A stretch of 37,019 bases of DNA, from NCBI GenBank assembly GCA_002724675.1, contig PBPL01000223.1:1-37019 (forward strand). The letters run 5' to 3'. The notes below the pieces were generated by a model that searched no databases, had not been told where the DNA came from, and saw only the letters and a list, made by a program, of their open reading frames with translations. Shown in pieces: positions 1,477 to 37,019 of the stretch; position 1 is the stretch's first letter; every line of letters begins with the position of its first letter. Both the position numbers and the translations under genes were made by a program. The DNA comes from Deltaproteobacteria bacterium (GTDB taxonomy: Bacteria > Myxococcota_A > UBA796 > UBA9615).

Positions 1477-4152
1477 ATGCGAAGCGAGCAACTGACCGTC
1501 AAGAGCCAGGAAGCCATCGGCGCCGCCCGAGAGTTGGCTCGCGAACACGGCCAGCAAGAGGTGGACCTCGAGCACCTGCTCATGGCTCTGCTCAGCCAAA
1601 AAGACGGCATTGTCCCCCAGGTCATCCGCAAGATCGGAGCCGACCTCAAGGCCGTGGAAGCGGACCTGGCCCAAGACCTGACCAAACGACCGAAAGTAGA
1701 GGGCGGTCGCTACTACGTCTCGGATCGACTCCACCGAACCGTGGATAAGGCGCTCGATGAGGCCACAGATCTCAAGGACGACTACATCAGTACCGAGCAC
1801 CTCTTGCTCGCGGCCACCGTCGCCAAGAAAGCCGCGGGGAGAGTCCTTCGCGAGCACGGCATCACCCGAGATGCGGTGCTCCAGGCAATGGCTCATCTGA
1901 GGGGAGCCCATCGAGTGACGGACCAGAGCCCAGAGGACAAGTTCCAAGCCCTGGAGAAGTACGGGCTCGACCTCTGTCAACAGGCCCGACAGGGCAAGCT
2001 CGATCCAGTCATTGGACGTCAAGAAGAGATCCGACGCATCGTGCAGATCCTCTCTCGGCGCACCAAGAACAACCCCGTACTCGTGGGTGAGCCCGGGGTG
2101 GGCAAGACAGCGCTCGCCGAAGGACTGGCCAATCGAATCGTCCAGGGAGACGTGCCAGAGACGCTCCGTAGCAAGCGCCTGATTGCGCTGGACCTGCCAT
2201 CCATGGTTGCCGGCGCCAAGTACCGCGGTGAGTTCGAAGAGCGGCTCAAGGCCGTGCTTCAAGAAGTTCAGGGAGCCGGCGGCGAGATCATTTTGTTCAT
2301 CGACGAGCTCCACAACATCATCGGCGCCGGCAAGAGCGAAGGAACCATGGACGCGTCCAACATGCTCAAGCCTGCGCTGGCCAGGGGCGAGCTCCGATGC
2401 ATTGGCGCCACCACGCTCGACGAATACCGCAAGCACATCGAGAAAGACTCTGCCCTGGAGCGGCGCTTCGCCCGCATCTTCGTGGACCAGCCCACTGTCG
2501 AGGACACCGTTGCCATCCTACGGGGCCTCAAGGACAAGTACGAAGTACACCACGGCGTCCGGATCCGAGACGCAGCGCTGGTGGCCGCTGCCCACCTGTC
2601 ACACCGCTACATCGTCGGACGCTTTCTGCCAGACAAGGCCATAGACCTCATGGACGAGGCCGCCTCTGCGGTTCGCATGGAGATCGACTCGATGCCGGCG
2701 GAGATCGACACCTTGCAACGTCGCATCCGCACCTTGCAGATCGAACAGCAGGCCCTGAAGAAGGAGGACGACCGAGCCAGCCGAGAGCGAGTCTCTGCCA
2801 TTGAGCTGGAGCTGTCCCAGATCGTCGAAGACGCCAATGCACTGCAGGCCCGATGGCAAGCCGAGAAGGCCGCCATCGCGGGCGTTCGTGAAAAGAAAGA
2901 GCAGCTGGAAGAGGCCCGCAACCAGATGGACCGGGTCGAGCGGGAGGGCGACCTGACCCGGGCAGCAGAACTCAAGTACGGCGTAATCCCTGAGCTAGAG
3001 AAGGCGATCGCGACAGAACAAGAGACCCTGGACGGCCGACAAGGCGATCACCCGATGCTCGTGGAAGAAGTGGATGAGGAGGGGATCGCGGCGGTAGTGG
3101 CCAAGTGGACCGGCATCCCTGTCAGCCGGCTACGAGAGTCCGAGGTGGCCAAGCTGCGGCGGATGGAAGACGAGCTCCGCAAGCGGGTCGTGGGCCAAGA
3201 CGAGGCCTTGTCCCTCGTGTCGTCGGCGGTTCGACGAGCGAGAGCGGGCCTGCAGGAAGACAGTCGACCCATCGGCTCATTCATCTTCCTGGGCCCCACA
3301 GGTGTCGGAAAGACGGAAACAGCAAAGGCCTTAGCCGAGTTTCTGTTCGACGACGAACAAGCCGTAGTGCGCATCGACATGTCCGAGTTCATGGAGAAAC
3401 ACGCCGTCGCACGCTTGATTGGCGCGCCACCCGGCTACGTGGGCTACGACGAAGGAGGCGTGCTGACCAATGCCGTCGCCACGCGGCCCTACTCGGTCGT
3501 ACTGTTCGACGAGATCGAGAAGGCTCACAGCGATGTCTTCAACGTGCTGCTTCAGATGCTCGACGATGGACGTCTCACCGACTCCCATGGCAAGACCGTC
3601 GACTTCCGAAACACCGTAATCATCATGACCAGCAACGTGGGCGCCCCGAGGATCATGGAGAGCGCAGGTGACCGAGAACAGATGCAGTCCATCGCGTCCG
3701 ATGCGCTGCAGGCCTCGTTCCGCCCCGAGTTTCTCAATCGAATCGACGACATCGTCGTGTTCAATCCTCTGAATCGGAAACATATCGGCGCGATCGTCCA
3801 CATCCAGTTGAACCAACTCCGACGCCTGCTGGATGGCCGCAACATGACCATTGAGCTGGACGACACGGCCACCACGCTGCTGGGTGACCTCGGCTACGAC
3901 CCGGCCTACGGTGCGAGGCCGCTCAAGCGAGCCATTCTGAGACACCTCAAGGACCCCTTGAGCCTTCAGATCCTCGATGGAGCCTTCGGCGAGGGAGACC
4001 ACCTCATGGTGGGTGTGCAAGAGGGCTCGTTTGTATTCGAGCTCACGGAGCGTCCCACGACCTTGGAGACAGCAGCTGTCGGCCCTACCGATTCGGGGAC
4101 CTCGGACCAGGACGAGGGCGAGAGCGCTCCCGGCGATCAGCCAGGCCTCTAA
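1477..4152 (+). CDS. clpB: ATP-dependent disaggregase ClpB
   Basis: ClpB is the cytosolic hexameric AAA+ chaperone that pulls polypeptides out of aggregates together with DnaK/DnaJ/GrpE. All domains are present in order: the Clp N-domain repeats (about 1-145); NBD1 with Walker A GEPGVGKT (204-211) and Walker B FIDELHN near 275; the long coiled-coil M-domain (about 405-520) characteristic of ClpB rather than ClpA/ClpC; NBD2 with Walker A GPTGVGKT (606-613), the [13 protein letters not shown] pore segment and [10 protein letters not shown]; and a D2-small domain with the GARPLKRAI sensor-2 motif. At 891 residues it is slightly longer than the usual 850-870 because of an acidic, Ser/Asp/Glu-rich tail of about 35 residues after FELTERP. 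It follows the DUF1844 gene by six bases. I saw no clear dedicated heat-shock operator. Confidence 0.98.
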
Positions 4153-30008: not shown

Positions 30009-31037
30009 GCGAGCTCTGAGACGCTCCAGCAGACCCACATAGTCCAAGGGCTCCGTGCTGGTAGAGAGGCCAACGACTCGGGCATTGCCCAGGTCTCCTG
30101 CTCGCTCCACGCACTTCCAGACAACCTCGGCTTCACTCACACTGTCTGCTCGCTCTTGGACAGCCATTCCCAGGTCTTGCATGGCCGAGGTCGGCAGATA
30201 GCCCCGCCGCATGACGTCCTGAAACAGGTTCGCCAGCTGATCAGCCGGCTTTTGGTCCGCCTTGAGGAAGGCTCGGGTGACATTCATGACCGAGGCCGCA
30301 TCGAGATGCCCTCGCGCAAAGAGCACAAGGGCCGCCTGAAAGTAGTTAAAGACAGGCACGAGCCGCAGCCCAAAGGGGGCAAAGACCGAAGGTGGGCTGC
30401 TGCGATCTAAGTGAATGAAGATGCTCTCGACCCCCTCGCCACCAGAGCACTCTTTGGACTGGACCACCTGTTCTCTCCACTTCAGACACCGCTCTACCGA
30501 CTCCCGATCCGAGCCTGCGGTCTCCAACACAGCGATCAGCAGCGCCTCATCGACCTGACCGGCGAGGATGTCGGCATACAGCGAGTAGACAAACGCATCA
30601 TCCTCGGCATCGTCGCCAAACAGCGTCTCGCCCACAGACACGCCCAGCTCGAACCGCGAACGCAGCAACAGCGGGAGCTTGTAACCGACCTGCTCCCGGA
30701 GGGCACGAAAGCGCCCCTGCCGGATGTTTCGGAGCTGCGGCTTGAGGTGAAACTCGTGCCAGGACACACCGTCCAGACGCAGCTTCTCCTCCAGCACACC
30801 GCGCATCTGACGCGGGGAGCCCGAGATGATGGTGACACGGGACGGACCCAGCCCTTCATGAGCCGCCGCTAGCTCCCGAAGTAAGGATGCGGAGCCCGGA
30901 ACATTCACTTTGTGCTCCGCGCGCTCGAAGGGGATCCGAACCAGGCTCTTGAGTTCTTCGAAGTGCGTGTCCAGGTAGGTCTTGTCGAGATCCCACCGAT
31001 ACACATGACGCCATGCGGGCCGGGGGTGCCGCGCCAT
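29997..31037 (-). CDS. HAD-fold phosphatase domain protein, App1/DUF2183-like
   Basis: A 346-residue protein whose first 170 residues look like the App1/DUF2183 catalytic domain, a HAD-superfamily fold linked to phosphatidate phosphatase in yeast App1. HAD motif I is YRWDLDKTYLDT (D16, D18), motif II is TIISGSPRQM, a lysine (K99 or K120) fits motif III and FGDDAEDDAFVYSLYADIL supplies the acidic motif IV. Residues 170-346 form a helical region I do not recognise, lacking membrane segments. The start overlaps the plsX stop by one base (TGATG). Position after plsX, whose product makes the acyl-phosphate precursor of phosphatidic acid, suggests a lipid-phosphate substrate, but this is inference. 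Confidence in the HAD fold is higher than in substrate. Confidence 0.75.
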   Translation of the reverse strand: MARHPRPAWRHVYRWDLDKTYLDTHFEELKSLVRIPFERAEHKVNVPGSASLLRELAAAHEGLGPSRVTIISGSPRQMRGVLEEKLRLDGVSWHEFHLKPQLRNIRQGRFRALREQVGYKLPLLLRSRFELGVSVGETLFGDDAEDDAFVYSLYADILAGQVDEALLIAVLETAGSDRESVERCLKWREQVVQSKECSGGEGVESIFIHLDRSSPPSVFAPFGLRLVPVFNYFQAALVLFARGHLDAASVMNVTRAFLKADQKPADQLANLFQDVMRRGYLPTSAMQDLGMAVQERADSVSEAEVVWKCVERAGDLGNARVVGLSTSTEPLDYVGLLERLRARSGR

Positions 31038-32053
31038 CAGAGTGCGTCCTCGTCAAACGGCAGATCAGTCATCGCCCGCTCCACGGTGCGGACCATGTCC
31101 GAGCGAGCAGCCTTCGCCGCGACCTTGCACGCATTGGCGATGGCGCGATGGCGGCTTCGCCCGTGAGCCTTGATGACGGGCCGGGTGAAGCCCAAGATGG
31201 GTGCGCCTCCGTACGATTCCCAGTCGAGCAGGCGACGCACTCGCTCCACCCCCGACGACAGCAAGAGCAGCCCCAGCCCTTGCAGGTACTTGCGGGCGCG
31301 CACATCGGCGGTCAGGTCGGCGACCACCTCACCCAGCCCTTCGAGCATCTTCAACACCACGTTGCCCAGGAAGCCCGAGGTCACGACCACGTCCACGGTT
31401 CCCCGCGGTATATCCAGCCCCTCGATGTTGCCAGCGAAGTCCAGAGCATCGATCTCGGACAGGATGCGGTGCGCCTCGACCACCTCAGACGGGCCCTTGT
31501 GGCTCTCGGTGCCGTTGCTGAGCAAGGCGACTCTCGGGTTCGGGTTGCCCGACACTGCGCTGGCATAGGCCGAGCCCATCGCAGCAAAAGTAACAAGGTC
31601 GCGCGCCGTCGCATCGAGAGTCGCCCCCACATCGAGGAGCAACGCAAATGGATCCTGCCGGGGTCCGTGGCGTCTCTCGGTGGGGATGACCGCGGCAAGG
31701 CAGGCTCGCCGCACGCCGGCAACCCGCCCCAGGTGTTCGGCCGAGGCCAGGATGGCAGCACCCGCAGAGCCGGCGGTAACCGCCGCATCGGCTCGACCCT
31801 CCGCCACCAGGCGCGCAGCCAACAAGATGGAAGCGTCTGGCTGCGCGTCCAGCTGGTCGCGCGGCGGCGCATCGGGACGAACCCACTGCTCTGTATGGAC
31901 CACGGACAGTCGGGCGGGGTCGTAGCGCTGCTCGTCCAAGAGCTGGGACACGGCATCACCGGGCCCCACCAGAAGTGTCCTAAGATCGTCCCGATCTTGC
32001 GACAGTTGAGCCGCCGCGTTCACAACCTCTTCGGGCCCGTGGTCTCCACCCAT
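31037..32053 (-). CDS. plsX: Phosphate acyltransferase PlsX (start unresolved)
   Basis: PlsX converts acyl-ACP to acyl-phosphate, feeding PlsY in phospholipid synthesis, and works at the inner face of the membrane. Family marks are MGGDHGPEEVV, TAGSAGAAILASAEHLGRV, LLDVGATLDATARDLVTFA, NPNPRVALLSNGTESHKG, FAGNIEGLDI and VVVTSGFLGNVVLKMLEG. ATG 32053 is the only canonical start, yet the frame continues upstream as SSVVTTIALDC, which matches the first strand of the family (usually like MRIAVDAMGGD). No ATG/GTG/TTG lies in that stretch. A strong GGAGA (32100-32096) sits six bases before an ATC at 32089-32087, which would give a 350-residue protein of normal layout. Usual length is about 330-350. 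Its stop overlaps the HAD-like gene. Confidence 0.9.
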   Translation of the reverse strand: MGGDHGPEEVVNAAAQLSQDRDDLRTLLVGPGDAVSQLLDEQRYDPARLSVVHTEQWVRPDAPPRDQLDAQPDASILLAARLVAEGRADAAVTAGSAGAAILASAEHLGRVAGVRRACLAAVIPTERRHGPRQDPFALLLDVGATLDATARDLVTFAAMGSAYASAVSGNPNPRVALLSNGTESHKGPSEVVEAHRILSEIDALDFAGNIEGLDIPRGTVDVVVTSGFLGNVVLKMLEGLGEVVADLTADVRARKYLQGLGLLLLSSGVERVRRLLDWESYGGAPILGFTRPVIKAHGRSRHRAIANACKVAAKAARSDMVRTVERAMTDLPFDEDAL

Positions 32054-32100: not shown

Positions 32101-32714
32101 TACTGGCCTTGCGCGTCCACCCGCAGGAACGCGACCACGAACCACAAGAGCCCCATCACCACCGCGCCGACAGCGACACCATGGGCCTTTCGGAAACGAT
32201 CTTCGATCTGGTTGACCCGATCCTGAAAGACGAGCCACGTGCGTCCAGAAAATGGCAGGAGCACCTCTCGGACGCGCAAGAAACCAAAGCCAGCGGGCAG
32301 CAGGCCAACCAACAGGAGCTTGGCGATGGGAGGGTAGGCCAAGAAGAACGGGGGGAGGGCGAACGAGGCCAGGATGAGCCCGGCATAGACCTTGAATTCC
32401 TTCTGGGCCGCCTCCAGGAGACTCTCGTCTTCGGCTCTTCGCTCTCGCTTCACTCGCTCGTCGACGGCCGCCTCCTCCTCGACCTCGGCGCTCGCCAGAT
32501 CCAAGAGATCACGCTGGGCCTCGGCTTCACGAATCACGTCATCCAGCGCACCCACATCAGCCACCACGTCATCTCGACGGGCCACCAGGTCTTCCACCAG
32601 GCTGGACGCAGCCTTCCACTCATCGCGCTGCTGAAGCTGCATCGGAGCCTCCTCCAGGCGATGTCGGAGACTCGCGATCACATCATCCAGTCGACCCACA
32701 GCATCGGTTGTCAT
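32100..32714 (-). CDS. Coiled-coil membrane protein of unknown function
   Basis: A 204-residue protein I do not recognise. Residues about 8-110 are highly charged and heptad-like (RLDDVIASLRHRLEEAPMQL, DLLDLASAEVEEEAAVDERV), predicting a long coiled coil. A membrane hairpin follows (about 114-150: VYAGLILASFALPPFFLAYP and IAKLLLVGLLPAGFGF). A final helix near 182-198 (GVAVGAVVMGLLWFVVAFL) ends the protein. ATG 32714 with GGAAGG upstream is chosen; it overlaps the stop of the 4-TM gene by four bases. The next gene is plsX. The arrangement suggests an accessory membrane protein of the phospholipid operon, by position only. Confidence 0.75.
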   Translation of the reverse strand: MTTDAVGRLDDVIASLRHRLEEAPMQLQQRDEWKAASSLVEDLVARRDDVVADVGALDDVIREAEAQRDLLDLASAEVEEEAAVDERVKRERRAEDESLLEAAQKEFKVYAGLILASFALPPFFLAYPPIAKLLLVGLLPAGFGFLRVREVLLPFSGRTWLVFQDRVNQIEDRFRKAHGVAVGAVVMGLLWFVVAFLRVDAQGQ

Positions 32715-33094
32715 GCTTCCTTCCCGGGGAAGAGCCCCCACAAGAGCCAAGACCACAATCCAGCGGCCACGGCAGGCCCGAAGAGCACCATGGGAAGGCT
32801 GGACTTGTGTATGAAGAAACAGAGAATCAGGAGGCCCACCAGGTTCAGTGTGACCACAGCACAGAGAATCCCAGGGCAAAGCTCGGTCCGGCGGACGGCC
32901 ACCTCCAAGAGGGCAGCCATAACCAACAGCACTCCCGCCACGAGGTAATAGAGCAGCCAGTGTCTAGGCGGCTCGAGGCTCAAGAAAGAGAGCAGGTCGT
33001 GCGGCAACAGCGCAGGCACGCCCCCTAGGACACCGTGATAAACGGCAGCTAGGCGGAGGATGCGCTCCGGTCTCAGTGTCACCTCGTCAGCCAT
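32711..33094 (-). CDS. Small four-helix membrane protein of unknown function
   Basis: A 127-residue protein with four hydrophobic segments: about 14-32, 45-66, 75-93 and 98-121. Short charged loops separate them (RRTELCP, HKSS). There is no signal peptide cleavage site, no cysteine pair and no enzyme motif, so no function is proposed. It is first in the minus-strand operon leading to plsX and overlaps the following gene by four bases (ATGA). The 120-base gap before it is shared with the divergent pseudoprotease gene. Confidence 0.72.
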   Translation of the reverse strand: MADEVTLRPERILRLAAVYHGVLGGVPALLPHDLLSFLSLEPPRHWLLYYLVAGVLLVMAALLEVAVRRTELCPGILCAVVTLNLVGLLILCFFIHKSSLPMVLFGPAVAAGLWSWLLWGLFPGKEA

Positions 33095-33214: not shown

Positions 33215-34651
33215 ATGCTGCGCTTGTCATCACTGAGGACCCGTTGCCGGTTGTCCTGCACGCCCATCTCTTTGTTGTCCGTCCTACTGGCCACCCTCCT
33301 CGCCACGCCCGCGATCGCAGACACTGACGATGCAGTCTCTGACAGCGAAGTCGAGGCCGTGCCGGCGGACACTGCTCCCCCCGCCCAGACCTCAACGGAA
33401 GCATCCGGCACAGAGAAGGCCCCAGCAGCCAAAGCCGCCGAAACTCCCGCGGGGGACGAGGCCCAGGACGACCAGCCCACTAAAGCGACACCAGCAACGG
33501 CCATGGCCGCTGTGGCTCGTCTCGTCTCGGGCAGTCGGGTGGGCGGTGGCGTCCTCGTCGCCCCAGATCTCGTGATGACACTCCTAGACCGGGTCGGTCT
33601 GGGCTATCGGGTCGACGTTCGTCTGGGCAATGGCCACCAAGCCACCGGGCGCATCAGCAAAGTAGACAAGGCGCGGGGTCTGGCGTTAGTTCGCCTGGAC
33701 GAGCCGGCACCGGCCAGCGGAGTAGCCACCCTCGCCACACGCCCAGCAGCACGGGGCGATGCGGTCACCATCATCGGTCACGGCGGCTCTGTCGGTCTGT
33801 CGGCGGACTATGCGGAGCTCCGCGGGCTCACCAGCTTCAGCACGGTGCAGGCCCAGGTAGCGGCCGACGCCTACGAGAGACCAGGAGACTACGATGGCGA
33901 CTGGGCAACCAACTTCCTGGTGGACCGCAGCGCCGGCTCAGGGGATGAAGGGAGCCCCGTGTTCTCGGCATCCGGCGAGCTGCTGGGGCTCCTGCGAGGA
34001 GCCGTCGAAGGGGGTGGTGGCCGAGGCTTGGTCGCAGCCACAGCCGATCTCCGGAGGCTTCTGGACGCGCCAGAGCCCGAGCGCGCCTACCGAAAGCCAC
34101 ATCACATGCAGTCGTGGGCGGGCTTTGGGGTCGCCTTCCACAACCGGCCCAGCCACATCGCGGGACTCGTCACCCTCGGGCTCCGCATTGCCTTTCTGGA
34201 TGCGCTCCGTCTCGAGCCTTGGTTCGAGGTGGACATGGGCTCTCGCGCCGCCATTCAGACGCCCGTCGAGCGTCCCCGAGACTTGTGGTGGTCCGTGGAG
34301 GGTGGGCTCAGCTTCGGCTACAGGCTCCCGCTGTTCTCCGAGGGCAGCCGCAGCTATGTCGTTCCCACCGCGGGTCTGCGTCTCGGCTGGAACCGCTTCC
34401 AGCACAATCAACAGTCACTGGTACCGAGCTGTCAGGACGGCGACTGCAGCTGGATCGTCCAAAAGACGACGGACCAGGAGCGAAGCTTCCGCGCCGGAGC
34501 CGACCTGGGTGTCGATGTACGGCACGGGAAGATCCGCATCGGCTATCGCTACTTCTTGTCCCCCGCAGACATGAAGGGGCATGCCATGCACCGCATCGTC
34601 ATGACGGTCGACGGCTGGCCGATCCCCCTTGGCCTCGGCGACACCCACTGA
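33215..34651 (+). CDS. Trypsin-fold pseudoprotease fused to a probable outer-membrane beta-barrel
   Basis: A 478-residue exported protein. A signal sequence (cleavage near TPAIA, residue 35) is followed by a disordered Ala/Pro/Glu/Thr linker (37-96). Residues about 97-284 look like a chymotrypsin/HtrA-type fold: VGGGVLVAPDLVMT, ARGLALVRLD, GDAVTIIGHGG and GSGDEGSPVFSASGELLGLL. The catalytic positions are all changed: the TAAH-type histidine is D125 in MTLLDRV, the DLALL-type aspartate is G155 in RGLALVRL, and the GDSGSP serine is E245 in GDEGSP. It should be inactive as a protease. Residues 300-478 alternate in a strand-like pattern (WAGFGVAFHN, GLSFGYRLPL, AGLRLGWNRF, KIRIGYRYF) and probably form an eight-to-ten-strand barrel. 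GGAG at 33206 gives the start; it is preceded by the CCCTG repeat. Confidence 0.72.
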   Translation: MLRLSSLRTRCRLSCTPISLLSVLLATLLATPAIADTDDAVSDSEVEAVPADTAPPAQTSTEASGTEKAPAAKAAETPAGDEAQDDQPTKATPATAMAAVARLVSGSRVGGGVLVAPDLVMTLLDRVGLGYRVDVRLGNGHQATGRISKVDKARGLALVRLDEPAPASGVATLATRPAARGDAVTIIGHGGSVGLSADYAELRGLTSFSTVQAQVAADAYERPGDYDGDWATNFLVDRSAGSGDEGSPVFSASGELLGLLRGAVEGGGGRGLVAATADLRRLLDAPEPERAYRKPHHMQSWAGFGVAFHNRPSHIAGLVTLGLRIAFLDALRLEPWFEVDMGSRAAIQTPVERPRDLWWSVEGGLSFGYRLPLFSEGSRSYVVPTAGLRLGWNRFQHNQQSLVPSCQDGDCSWIVQKTTDQERSFRAGADLGVDVRHGKIRIGYRYFLSPADMKGHAMHRIVMTVDGWPIPLGLGDTH

Positions 34652-34714: not shown

Positions 34715-37019
34715 TCAGGGCCACACAGGAACAGAGATCATGTCCTGAAGCTCGGGGAAGTCCCACATGTGCGTGGTGTAGCCCAGGTCGACCAGAGAAA
34801 AGTTGGCGTCCCCATCGTTGACGGCCAGCATCAAGGTGCGGTCTAGATCCCACCATGGGTCCTGGTACGACACCACCAGATCGACATCGCCATCTGCATC
34901 CCAGTCATAGGGATAGAGCCAGCCATAGCCAGGCAGGTTGTCGTCGGGCAGCCCACCCCCTGGATCCGGTGTGACATCAAAGCTCTCTACACCGAGACCT
35001 GAGGGATTGCCGGGATTGAGTGGGTCCTGGAGCCAGATCCAAGTCTGGCCCGCATCCCCGTCATCATCGAGACCACCGATGAAGTCAACCAATCCATCGC
35101 CATTGAAGTCGGCCATGGCGGCTCCGTTGATTCGGCGAGAGAGCACGAACACCCCAAAGATGCCCGCGTCGAAGCTGCCTGTACCAAGCCCCTCGTGCAC
35201 CTGACAGTAGGTAAGCGGCGCAATGGAGAACGACTGGTTGCTGCACTCGACAAGGTCTACGAACCCGTCGCCGGTCACATCCAAGGGCGGCGAGATGAAC
35301 AACTCGCGGGTGTCCGGCGTCTGTGGGTTGGGGTGCCAGCTGAGGTCGAAGGGGCGAGCCCCTGTTGTGCTGCTGGGGATTCGCTCCCACTCCACACCAT
35401 CGCCTTCATTAAGCCAAGTCCACCCCCGCCCGTCGAAGAAGTCCCAGCCGACTACATCCAGATCGCCATCGTTGTCCAGATCCGCAGCCGCGTAAGGGTC
35501 CGACAGTCCCCACAGATCCATGCCGTCGTTGTTGTCGATGTTGATCTGATCGAAGCCCCCCACGCAGTCGGATCGGAACAGGCGAGCATGCATCACGTTG
35601 TTGGTGCCCAAGACCTGCTCTCGACTCGTGATGAAGTCTTGATACCCATCCCCATCAAAGTCTCCGGCAACCGCACCAAAGGCGGTTCCTAGACCGAATG
35701 GGTTGTAGGTCTCCGGAGAGTCGAATTGTCCGGAAGATCGGTCATAGGCCCACAGCTCCACAGAGTCTTCGTGGATGCCTTTGACAAAGAACTCATCGTC
35801 CACTGCCCCATCGTCCACGACGTCGTTGCAGTCATTGTCGACATCGTCACAGAGAATCTCGTCGGCATCTGAGTTGATGTCGTCATCGGTGTCATCACAG
35901 TCACCGTCGCACTCCGCCTCACCGTCACCGTCGTCATCGGTCTCTTGGCCGGGCTCACCAGGGTCGCCCGAGTCCTCGAGGCCATTGCAGTCGTTGTCGA
36001 CACCGTCACACCGCTCGGGCGCTCCTGGATAGTCGTTCGCTGCCGCGTCGTTGCAGTCGGCAAGAGCACCGTAGGTGGCTAGGCAGCCTGGATCATCGGC
36101 ATCGAAGTAGCCGTCCGAGTCGCCATCAAAGCCCTCGTCGACAGAGTCATCACAGTCGTTGTCCTCGTCATCGCAGATCTCGTCCGCATCGGGATGGATG
36201 AGGTCTTGCTCGTCGTCACAGTCCCCATCCACAGCGGAGTAGCCACCCGGCTGGTCACAAGCGGTGACCGTCTGGGCCGTCAGACCGTAGTCGTCACCAT
36301 CCCCATCCAGGTACCAGGTCGACGCTTCCGGCCCATCATCTTCGTCCGTGTCGTCGTTGCAGTCGTTGTCCAGCCCATCACAAAGCTCTGGAGCCTCTGG
36401 GTTGGTGAGCTCATACGTGTCGTCGCAGTCCCCGTCGACAGCCGCGTAGCCCACGGGCTGCTCGCAAGCCGAGACTGTGTCGCTCCCTAGACCATAGTTG
36501 TCACCGTCCACATCCAGGTACCAGGTCGATGCGTCGGCGCTATCGTCCTCGTCGGTTCCCGGGTCGCAGTCATTGTCCACTCCGTCGCAGACCTCAGCCT
36601 GACCGGGATACACAGCCGGATCCGAATCGTCGCAGTCGCCCTCGCTTACAGTGAAGCCATCCGAGTCGGCATCGATCTCCGCCGAATCGTCGTCGTCACC
36701 GGTGTCGTCATCGCCCACATCATCATCGTCGTCGTCGTCGCCGGTGTCGTCGTCGTCACCTAGGTCATCGTCGTCGCCGGTATCGTCATCGCCCGCATCA
36801 TCGTCGTCGCCCGCATCATCGTCGTCGCCCGAGTCATCGTCGTCACCGGAATCATCGTCATCACCGGAATCATCGTCATCACCCGTGTCGTCGTCATCGC
36901 CGGTGTCGTCGTCACCCGTATCGTCGTCACCTAGGTCATCGTCGTCGGCGGTGTCGTCGTCGTCGTCATCGTCGCCGGTGTCGTCGTCGTCATCACCAGC
37001 GTCGTCATCGTCATCGCCG
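34715..37019 (-). CDS. Large secreted repeat protein: acidic GDDDD linker, MopE-type repeats, FG-GAP/VCBS domain (5' partial)
   Basis: The 3' part of a large surface protein; the frame is open to the window edge, so start and signal peptide are not seen. In protein order it has at least 110 residues of Asp-rich GDDDD units (37019 to about 36675); a Cys/Asp-rich region (36673-35810) with four to five MopE/putative-metal-binding units such as DGDCDD, PGAPERCDGVDNDCNG and two near-identical units around ASTWYLDxDGDxYGL; then a beta-propeller-like domain with FG-GAP/VCBS calcium motifs (FDGDGYQDFITS, LDNDGDLDVVGW, VTGDGFVDLVEC, FNGDGLVDFIGG, WDADGDVDLVVS). Such proteins are exported and may bind calcium or other metals at the surface. 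The end is TAA-side MISVPVWP. Function (adhesin, metal capture) is not determined. GTG 36718 is an internal codon, not a start. Confidence 0.88.
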   Translation of the reverse strand, partial: GDDDDDAGDDDDDTGDDDDDDDTADDDDLGDDDTGDDDTGDDDDTGDDDDSGDDDDSGDDDDSGDDDDAGDDDDAGDDDTGDDDDLGDDDDTGDDDDDDDVGDDDTGDDDDSAEIDADSDGFTVSEGDCDDSDPAVYPGQAEVCDGVDNDCDPGTDEDDSADASTWYLDVDGDNYGLGSDTVSACEQPVGYAAVDGDCDDTYELTNPEAPELCDGLDNDCNDDTDEDDGPEASTWYLDGDGDDYGLTAQTVTACDQPGGYSAVDGDCDDEQDLIHPDADEICDDEDNDCDDSVDEGFDGDSDGYFDADDPGCLATYGALADCNDAAANDYPGAPERCDGVDNDCNGLEDSGDPGEPGQETDDDGDGEAECDGDCDDTDDDINSDADEILCDDVDNDCNDVVDDGAVDDEFFVKGIHEDSVELWAYDRSSGQFDSPETYNPFGLGTAFGAVAGDFDGDGYQDFITSREQVLGTNNVMHARLFRSDCVGGFDQINIDNNDGMDLWGLSDPYAAADLDNDGDLDVVGWDFFDGRGWTWLNEGDGVEWERIPSSTTGARPFDLSWHPNPQTPDTRELFISPPLDVTGDGFVDLVECSNQSFSIAPLTYCQVHEGLGTGSFDAGIFGVFVLSRRINGAAMADFNGDGLVDFIGGLDDDGDAGQTWIWLQDPLNPGNPSGLGVESFDVTPDPGGGLPDDNLPGYGWLYPYDWDADGDVDLVVSYQDPWWDLDRTLMLAVNDGDANFSLVDLGYTTHMWDFPELQDMISVPVWP
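35810..36673 (-). repeat. MopE-type metal-binding repeat region
   Basis: This part of the terminal gene encodes repeats of about 45-70 residues with the pattern DGDCDD...PxAxExCDGxDNDCxxxxDE. Two neighbouring units share ASTWYLD and YGL segments and are close copies; the others are more diverged. The pattern matches the putative metal-binding motif first noted in MopE-like proteins. Confidence 0.8.
36665..37019 (-). repeat. In-frame acidic tandem repeat (GDDDD, 18-base units)
   Basis: GAC/GAT codons in blocks of three to seven are separated by a pair of the type Thr-Gly, Ala-Gly, Ser-Gly, Leu-Gly or Val-Gly, giving about sixteen hexapeptide-like units in tandem. Most units are 18 bases; a few are 15 or up to 27, always multiples of three, so the frame is kept. 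The array runs off the end of the window. Confidence 0.9.

Follow-up and report, generated by a model that had tools for sequence, protein, structure and literature searches.

In MarP an active protease is joined to inner-membrane helices at the N-terminus, and classical autotransporters possess a C-terminal barrel of 12 strands. Few bacterial trypsin-fold pseudoproteases have a known role. The best case that we found is MamO of magnetotactic bacteria, an HtrA-like protein with an altered and dispensable catalytic triad and a C-terminal membrane domain, which acts non-catalytically by binding metal and promoting the activity of the protease MamE (PMC4794232). Loss of activity among prokaryotic serine protease homologues is in itself no rarity: a survey of 91 genomes counted 42 inactive ones among 966 (PMC2605481). 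The sections of that survey on which we draw mention no two-domain S1 family with an outer-membrane anchor.

The locus reported here lies within a window of 37,019 nucleotides, the whole stretch of DNA that was analyzed. It encodes a protein that probably belongs to a dead branch within a family of trypsin-like proteins, unnamed and for the most part active, with a probable outer-membrane anchor. This two-domain family, trypsin-like domain plus barrel, is apparently undescribed, and our literature search found nothing on such a layout in this phylum.

Results

The focal gene is single-copy in its own genome, and its features are collected in Table 1. Leaders similar to its signal peptide were observed in two orthologues, L006 and L007. 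The linker that follows had pLDDT values of about 30–36 over most of its length and showed 5–29% identity among orthologues.

Table 1. Features of the focal gene and of two conserved neighbours (positions in the window).
Feature	Position	Strand	Basis or remark
Whole gene, intact ORF, 478 aa, ATG start	33215..34651	+	Putative secreted trypsin-like pseudoprotease with predicted C-terminal outer-membrane barrel
Putative Sec-type signal peptide, residues 1–36	33215..33322	+	Sequence reading: arginine-rich N-terminus, hydrophobic core and AIA ahead of D37
Low-complexity A/P/E/D/T-rich linker, residues 37–99	33323..33511	+	Disordered in AF2 model
Trypsin/HtrA-like double barrel domain, residues 100–285	33512..34069	+	PF13365; AF2; Foldseek to DegS/MarP
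D125 at catalytic His position	33587..33589	+	Alignment with intact relatives
G155 at catalytic Asp position	33677..33679	+	Alignment with intact relatives
E245 at nucleophile Ser position	33947..33949	+	Alignment with intact relatives
Lengthened, mostly acidic loop, residues 218–233	33866..33913	+	In 4/4 clade members; absent from intact relatives compared
Clade signature FL[VI]DRxxGxGDxGxPV, residues 234–249	33914..33961	+	In place of [IVL]QTDAxxNPGNSGGP
C-terminal domain, residues 294–473, eight predicted strands	34094..34633	+	Resembles 8-strand outer-membrane barrel
Conserved C-terminal tail, residues 467–478, past last main strand	34613..34648	+	Stands where other members have terminal aromatic
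PlsX, fatty-acid/phospholipid synthesis, conserved neighbour	31037..32053	-	PF02504 E=1e-84; synteny
Small hydrophobic protein, divergent neighbour	32711..33094	-	No Pfam match; linked to focal gene in 4/4 genomes

A Pfam scan of the focal protein identified Trypsin_2 (PF13365; E 1.3e-10, 42.6 bits against a cut-off of 27.6) and nothing else above cut-off. The AF2 model, built from a four-sequence alignment, displayed a confident HtrA-like trypsin domain (pLDDT mostly 80–94, with weaker loops), which Foldseek matched to the protease domains of DegS and MarP at target-normalised TM values of 0.75–0.80 and E-values down to 2e-10. A protease fold is predicted with high confidence. The original prediction had read a trypsin-like domain stripped of its catalytic residues, and alignment with 36 intact relatives bore this out: D125, G155 and E245 occupy the His, Asp and Ser columns and the triad is absent, while the oxyanion-loop glycine, G243, is kept. 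Among the four sequences of the focal clade no Ser or Cys was invariant in the protease domain, which makes a re-invented nucleophile unlikely.

The C-terminal domain had been described beforehand as strand-rich, and this description agrees with what we obtained. Eight strands were observed in both AF2 runs, of the full-length protein and of the isolated domain, in a model that was likewise built from a four-sequence alignment (pLDDT 69, mostly 55–83). The best fold matches found by Foldseek were OmpW and OmpA, with Ail and OmpX further down the list (E 6e-3 to 0.2, TM about 0.41), and the alternating hydrophobicity of the domain exceeded that of 1000 shuffles (p=0.001). Of the anticipated architecture, structure prediction supports the protease fold, whereas a closed barrel is a candidate reading of the eight strands at these lower scores. 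We regard the C-terminal barrel and its outer-membrane location as predicted with moderate confidence. Outer-membrane barrels inserted by BAM are expected to end in an aromatic residue (F/W/Y), and such a residue was found in 45 of the 48 barrel-layout members outside the focal clade versus none of 13 other, non-barrel S1 proteins. In the focal clade a tail of 12–13 residues takes the place of the terminal aromatic.

Scans with Pfam and NCBIfam assigned no family to the C-terminal domains of the relatives, and a class-wide search with the C-terminal profile alone recovered only the focal clade; a weak match in genome G009 (E 0.007) proved to be unrelated. When the C-terminal domain of the focal clade was compared directly with the class set by hhalign, no match was obtained (0.6–0.9%). 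Unrelated barrels, as this class-only comparison would suggest, were overturned by homology through the added phylum relatives: the focal domain matched these at 98.2% (E 3.4e-14 over 160 columns), with reversed-sequence controls not exceeding 4%, and the match between these relatives and the class set was weaker (84%, E 7e-6; reversed 6%).

A class-wide search revealed many trypsin-like proteins that combine an intact triad with a strand-rich C-terminal domain, and a search of 379 genomes of the window's phylum yielded full-length relatives, both live and dead. From the phylum, 52 proteins of the two-domain layout were collected as a ranked sample; in the triad columns 36 of them retain H-D-S and 16 have lost the triad. 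Since relatives across the phylum share the layout, mostly with H-D-S, the focal protein is better described as a pseudoprotease branch than as an orphan fusion. The earlier statement that no named family has this layout holds insofar as neither Pfam nor NCBIfam offers a model for the C-terminal domain or for the layout, but the layout itself is phylum-wide rather than unique.

In a tree built on the trypsin domain with the triad columns removed, the barrel-type proteins grouped to one side of a branch (99/92). A dead relative, L101 (GDL; 99/93), was joined on a long branch by the focal clade (100/99). Because of their long branches, the positions of L101 and L106 are unreliable. The tree requires at least three changes of triad state; however, a single dead clade was not rejected (p-AU 0.38), and we therefore do not claim repeated independent loss. 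Genomes G003 and G004 possess an intact two-domain paralogue (L023 and L016) alongside the dead one, and genome G241 carries both kinds (L076 and L125). In the focal protein's own genome only the dead protein, and no intact two-domain paralogue, was present among the matches found.

Elsewhere in the family, the two-domain proteins L125, L126 and L127 read E/G/E, D/G/E and D/D/E at the triad positions, Glu recurring at the Ser position as in E245. Three close kin, L094, L096 and L099, have Arg at the Asp position and Thr or Ile at the Ser position (HRT, SRT and SRI), and this group is apparently at differing stages of triad loss.

The scan of genome contigs found only three near orthologues, all from the same bacterial family and 43–48% identical to the focal protein (L006 in G003, L007 in G004 and L008 in G001); no relatives were found in the viral contigs scanned. 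L008 is cut by a contig end and the other two are full-length. Their triad columns read H/E/R, R/G/A and E/G/L, respectively, so that all have lost the triad, each differently. The presence of triad-less orthologues in three other assemblies indicates that the loss in the focal protein is neither chance nor an assembly error. The neighbourhood of the orthologues is the same as that of the focal gene and comprises the small hydrophobic protein, an unnamed protein, PlsX, an APP1-like protein (scoring below its Pfam cut-off) and TatD. In G005, of the same family, this neighbourhood is kept and the pseudoprotease gene is absent, which shows that at least one lineage can do without it.

Some further observations were made at these loci. 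On the minus strand of the window, positions 34715–37018 encode a protein in which a GDDDD-type acidic repeat, running off the window, precedes five Cu-binding motifs of the MopE type (PF11617) and FG-GAP repeats; a homologue is found at the same place in G005. In L002 and L003 a class I methyltransferase-like gene, recognized by eye, separates the gene for the small hydrophobic protein from that for the pseudoprotease, which is not the case in the window. At L005 (G003, contig C197) an intact HtrA-like gene is followed immediately downstream by a second S1-like ORF (2700–3608, plus strand); the His, Asp and Ser motifs of this ORF also look replaced (LVLISGTV, GLNMLGAPLW), and the two are possibly a live/dead HtrA pair.

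Codon position 2 of the trypsin domain differed less than position 3 in every orthologue pair, with divergences of 0.35–0.40 versus 0.59–0.62 in the window pairs. The bias was stronger in the barrel domain (0.23–0.27 versus 0.50–0.58), and identity to the orthologues was 53–55% for the barrel and 39–44% for the trypsin domain. As the better conserved of the two domains, the barrel may account for a larger share of the function.

The remodelling of the dead site could be read from residues fixed in the clade, a signature resting on four sequences. In comparison with the 36 intact relatives these were L123 (Ala in 36/36), G190 (Pro in 36/36), L235 (Gln in 35/36), R238 (Ala in 33/36), D244 (Asn in 28/36) and R270 (Leu, Val or Ile); L235, R238, G241 and D244 are present in 4/4 clade members and each in fewer than 10% of the intact relatives. 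Roughly 10 extra, mostly acidic residues form a loop that precedes FL[VI]DR. When HtrA proteins are aligned with the clade, the loop presumably corresponds to L3, which has a regulatory role in DegS. That triads were lost differently and yet new residues became fixed around the dead site points to selection rather than decay. A selected non-catalytic role, as first proposed, is thus favored by both the loss common to the orthologues and the lineage-specific fixed residues.

Discussion

We propose that the focal protein is probably a catalytically dead trypsin-like scaffold, anchored in the outer membrane and periplasmic, which most likely binds a peptide or protein. The protein would be exported by Sec, its C-terminal eight-strand barrel would insert into the outer membrane, and the N-terminal trypsin-like domain would remain in the periplasm. 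With the nucleophile and general base missing it would not cleave; the remodelled active-site face (FL[VI]DR, GxGD, GHGG, R108/R238/R270 and the acidic loop) may instead bind a periplasmic peptide or protein, and the focal protein could in this way act as a tether, decoy or regulator.

We infer the periplasmic topology and the binding function from the following considerations. An outer-membrane barrel with an even number of strands has both its termini on the periplasmic side, which should place the trypsin-like domain in the periplasm. With no usable lumen in a barrel of eight strands, neither a plug nor surface display is favored, and binding is the role that remains. The plug envisaged in the original prediction is implausible since there is no lumen to plug, and display of the domain on the cell surface would not be expected of a trypsin domain that precedes an even-stranded C-terminal barrel. 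The peptide-binding sensor that the original prediction also named is a conjecture, and of the two domains it is the trypsin-like one that is less conserved.

The main challenge to a binding scaffold is that the barrel could be the working part and the trypsin domain a relic, kept as a folded stalk or for stability. The higher identity and lower position-2 divergence of the barrel are in line with this, as are the long branches of the dead clade; however, the trypsin domain is still constrained, lineage-specific polar residues have been fixed near the dead site and the acidic loop is common to the clade, and we consider a relic rather unlikely. Outright decay, with the gene caught before frame damage, would account for a triad that is both gone and variable, but is scarcely credible: the frames are intact, full-length orthologues persist in two other genomes besides one truncated by a contig end, and the third-position bias and the new fixed residues already contradict it.

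Residual cleavage through other residues or a re-invented site might be argued from the His retained in L006 and from G243 in the oxyanion loop. No Ser or Cys of the domain is invariant and all three triad positions vary among the orthologues, and we judge such cleavage very improbable. Slightly less remote, but still improbable, is a mini-autotransporter in which the trypsin-like domain is the passenger shown outside via the C-terminal barrel. The order of passenger and C-terminal barrel fits type Va secretion, and subtilisin-autotransporter fusions, known from the part of the survey cited here (PMC2605481), were counted in its favor. Against it stand a C-terminal domain of about 185 aa with eight predicted strands and the lack of any autotransporter Pfam match.

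The scaffold that we favor need not be confined to the focal clade. Tentatively, the phylum may possess a family of outer-membrane-tethered periplasmic proteins in which several independent losses have produced binding scaffolds (about one third of those sampled), some perhaps regulating intact paralogues in the same genome. Live and dead members occur on one architecture, sometimes in one genome, and such a series allows the role of a non-cutting protease fold at the outer membrane to be asked directly. The architecture also probably represents a new mode of outer-membrane anchoring for an S1 domain, on the periplasmic face.

Among described systems, the serine-protease autotransporters likewise have a protease-like N-terminal domain followed by a C-terminal barrel, from which the focal protein differs in having 8 rather than 12 strands and no autotransporter family match. 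MarP (Rv3671c) is the best solved-structure match to the focal protease domain, but is active and attached to the inner membrane through its N-terminal helices. With HtrA, DegS, DegP and DegQ (S1C) and with Trypsin_2 the N-terminal domain shares both the fold and detectable sequence homology; unlike these proteases the focal protein lacks the triad, and in place of a PDZ domain, of which the Pfam scan found none, it has the strand-rich C-terminal domain. The MamO model gave no match in the focal protein, and the orthologue L006 scored 16 bits against a cut-off of 800. MamO is nonetheless the closest characterized precedent, in that an HtrA-like domain with an altered triad is fused to a C-terminal membrane domain, which is a TauE-like transporter in MamO and strand-rich and outer-membrane-like in the focal protein.
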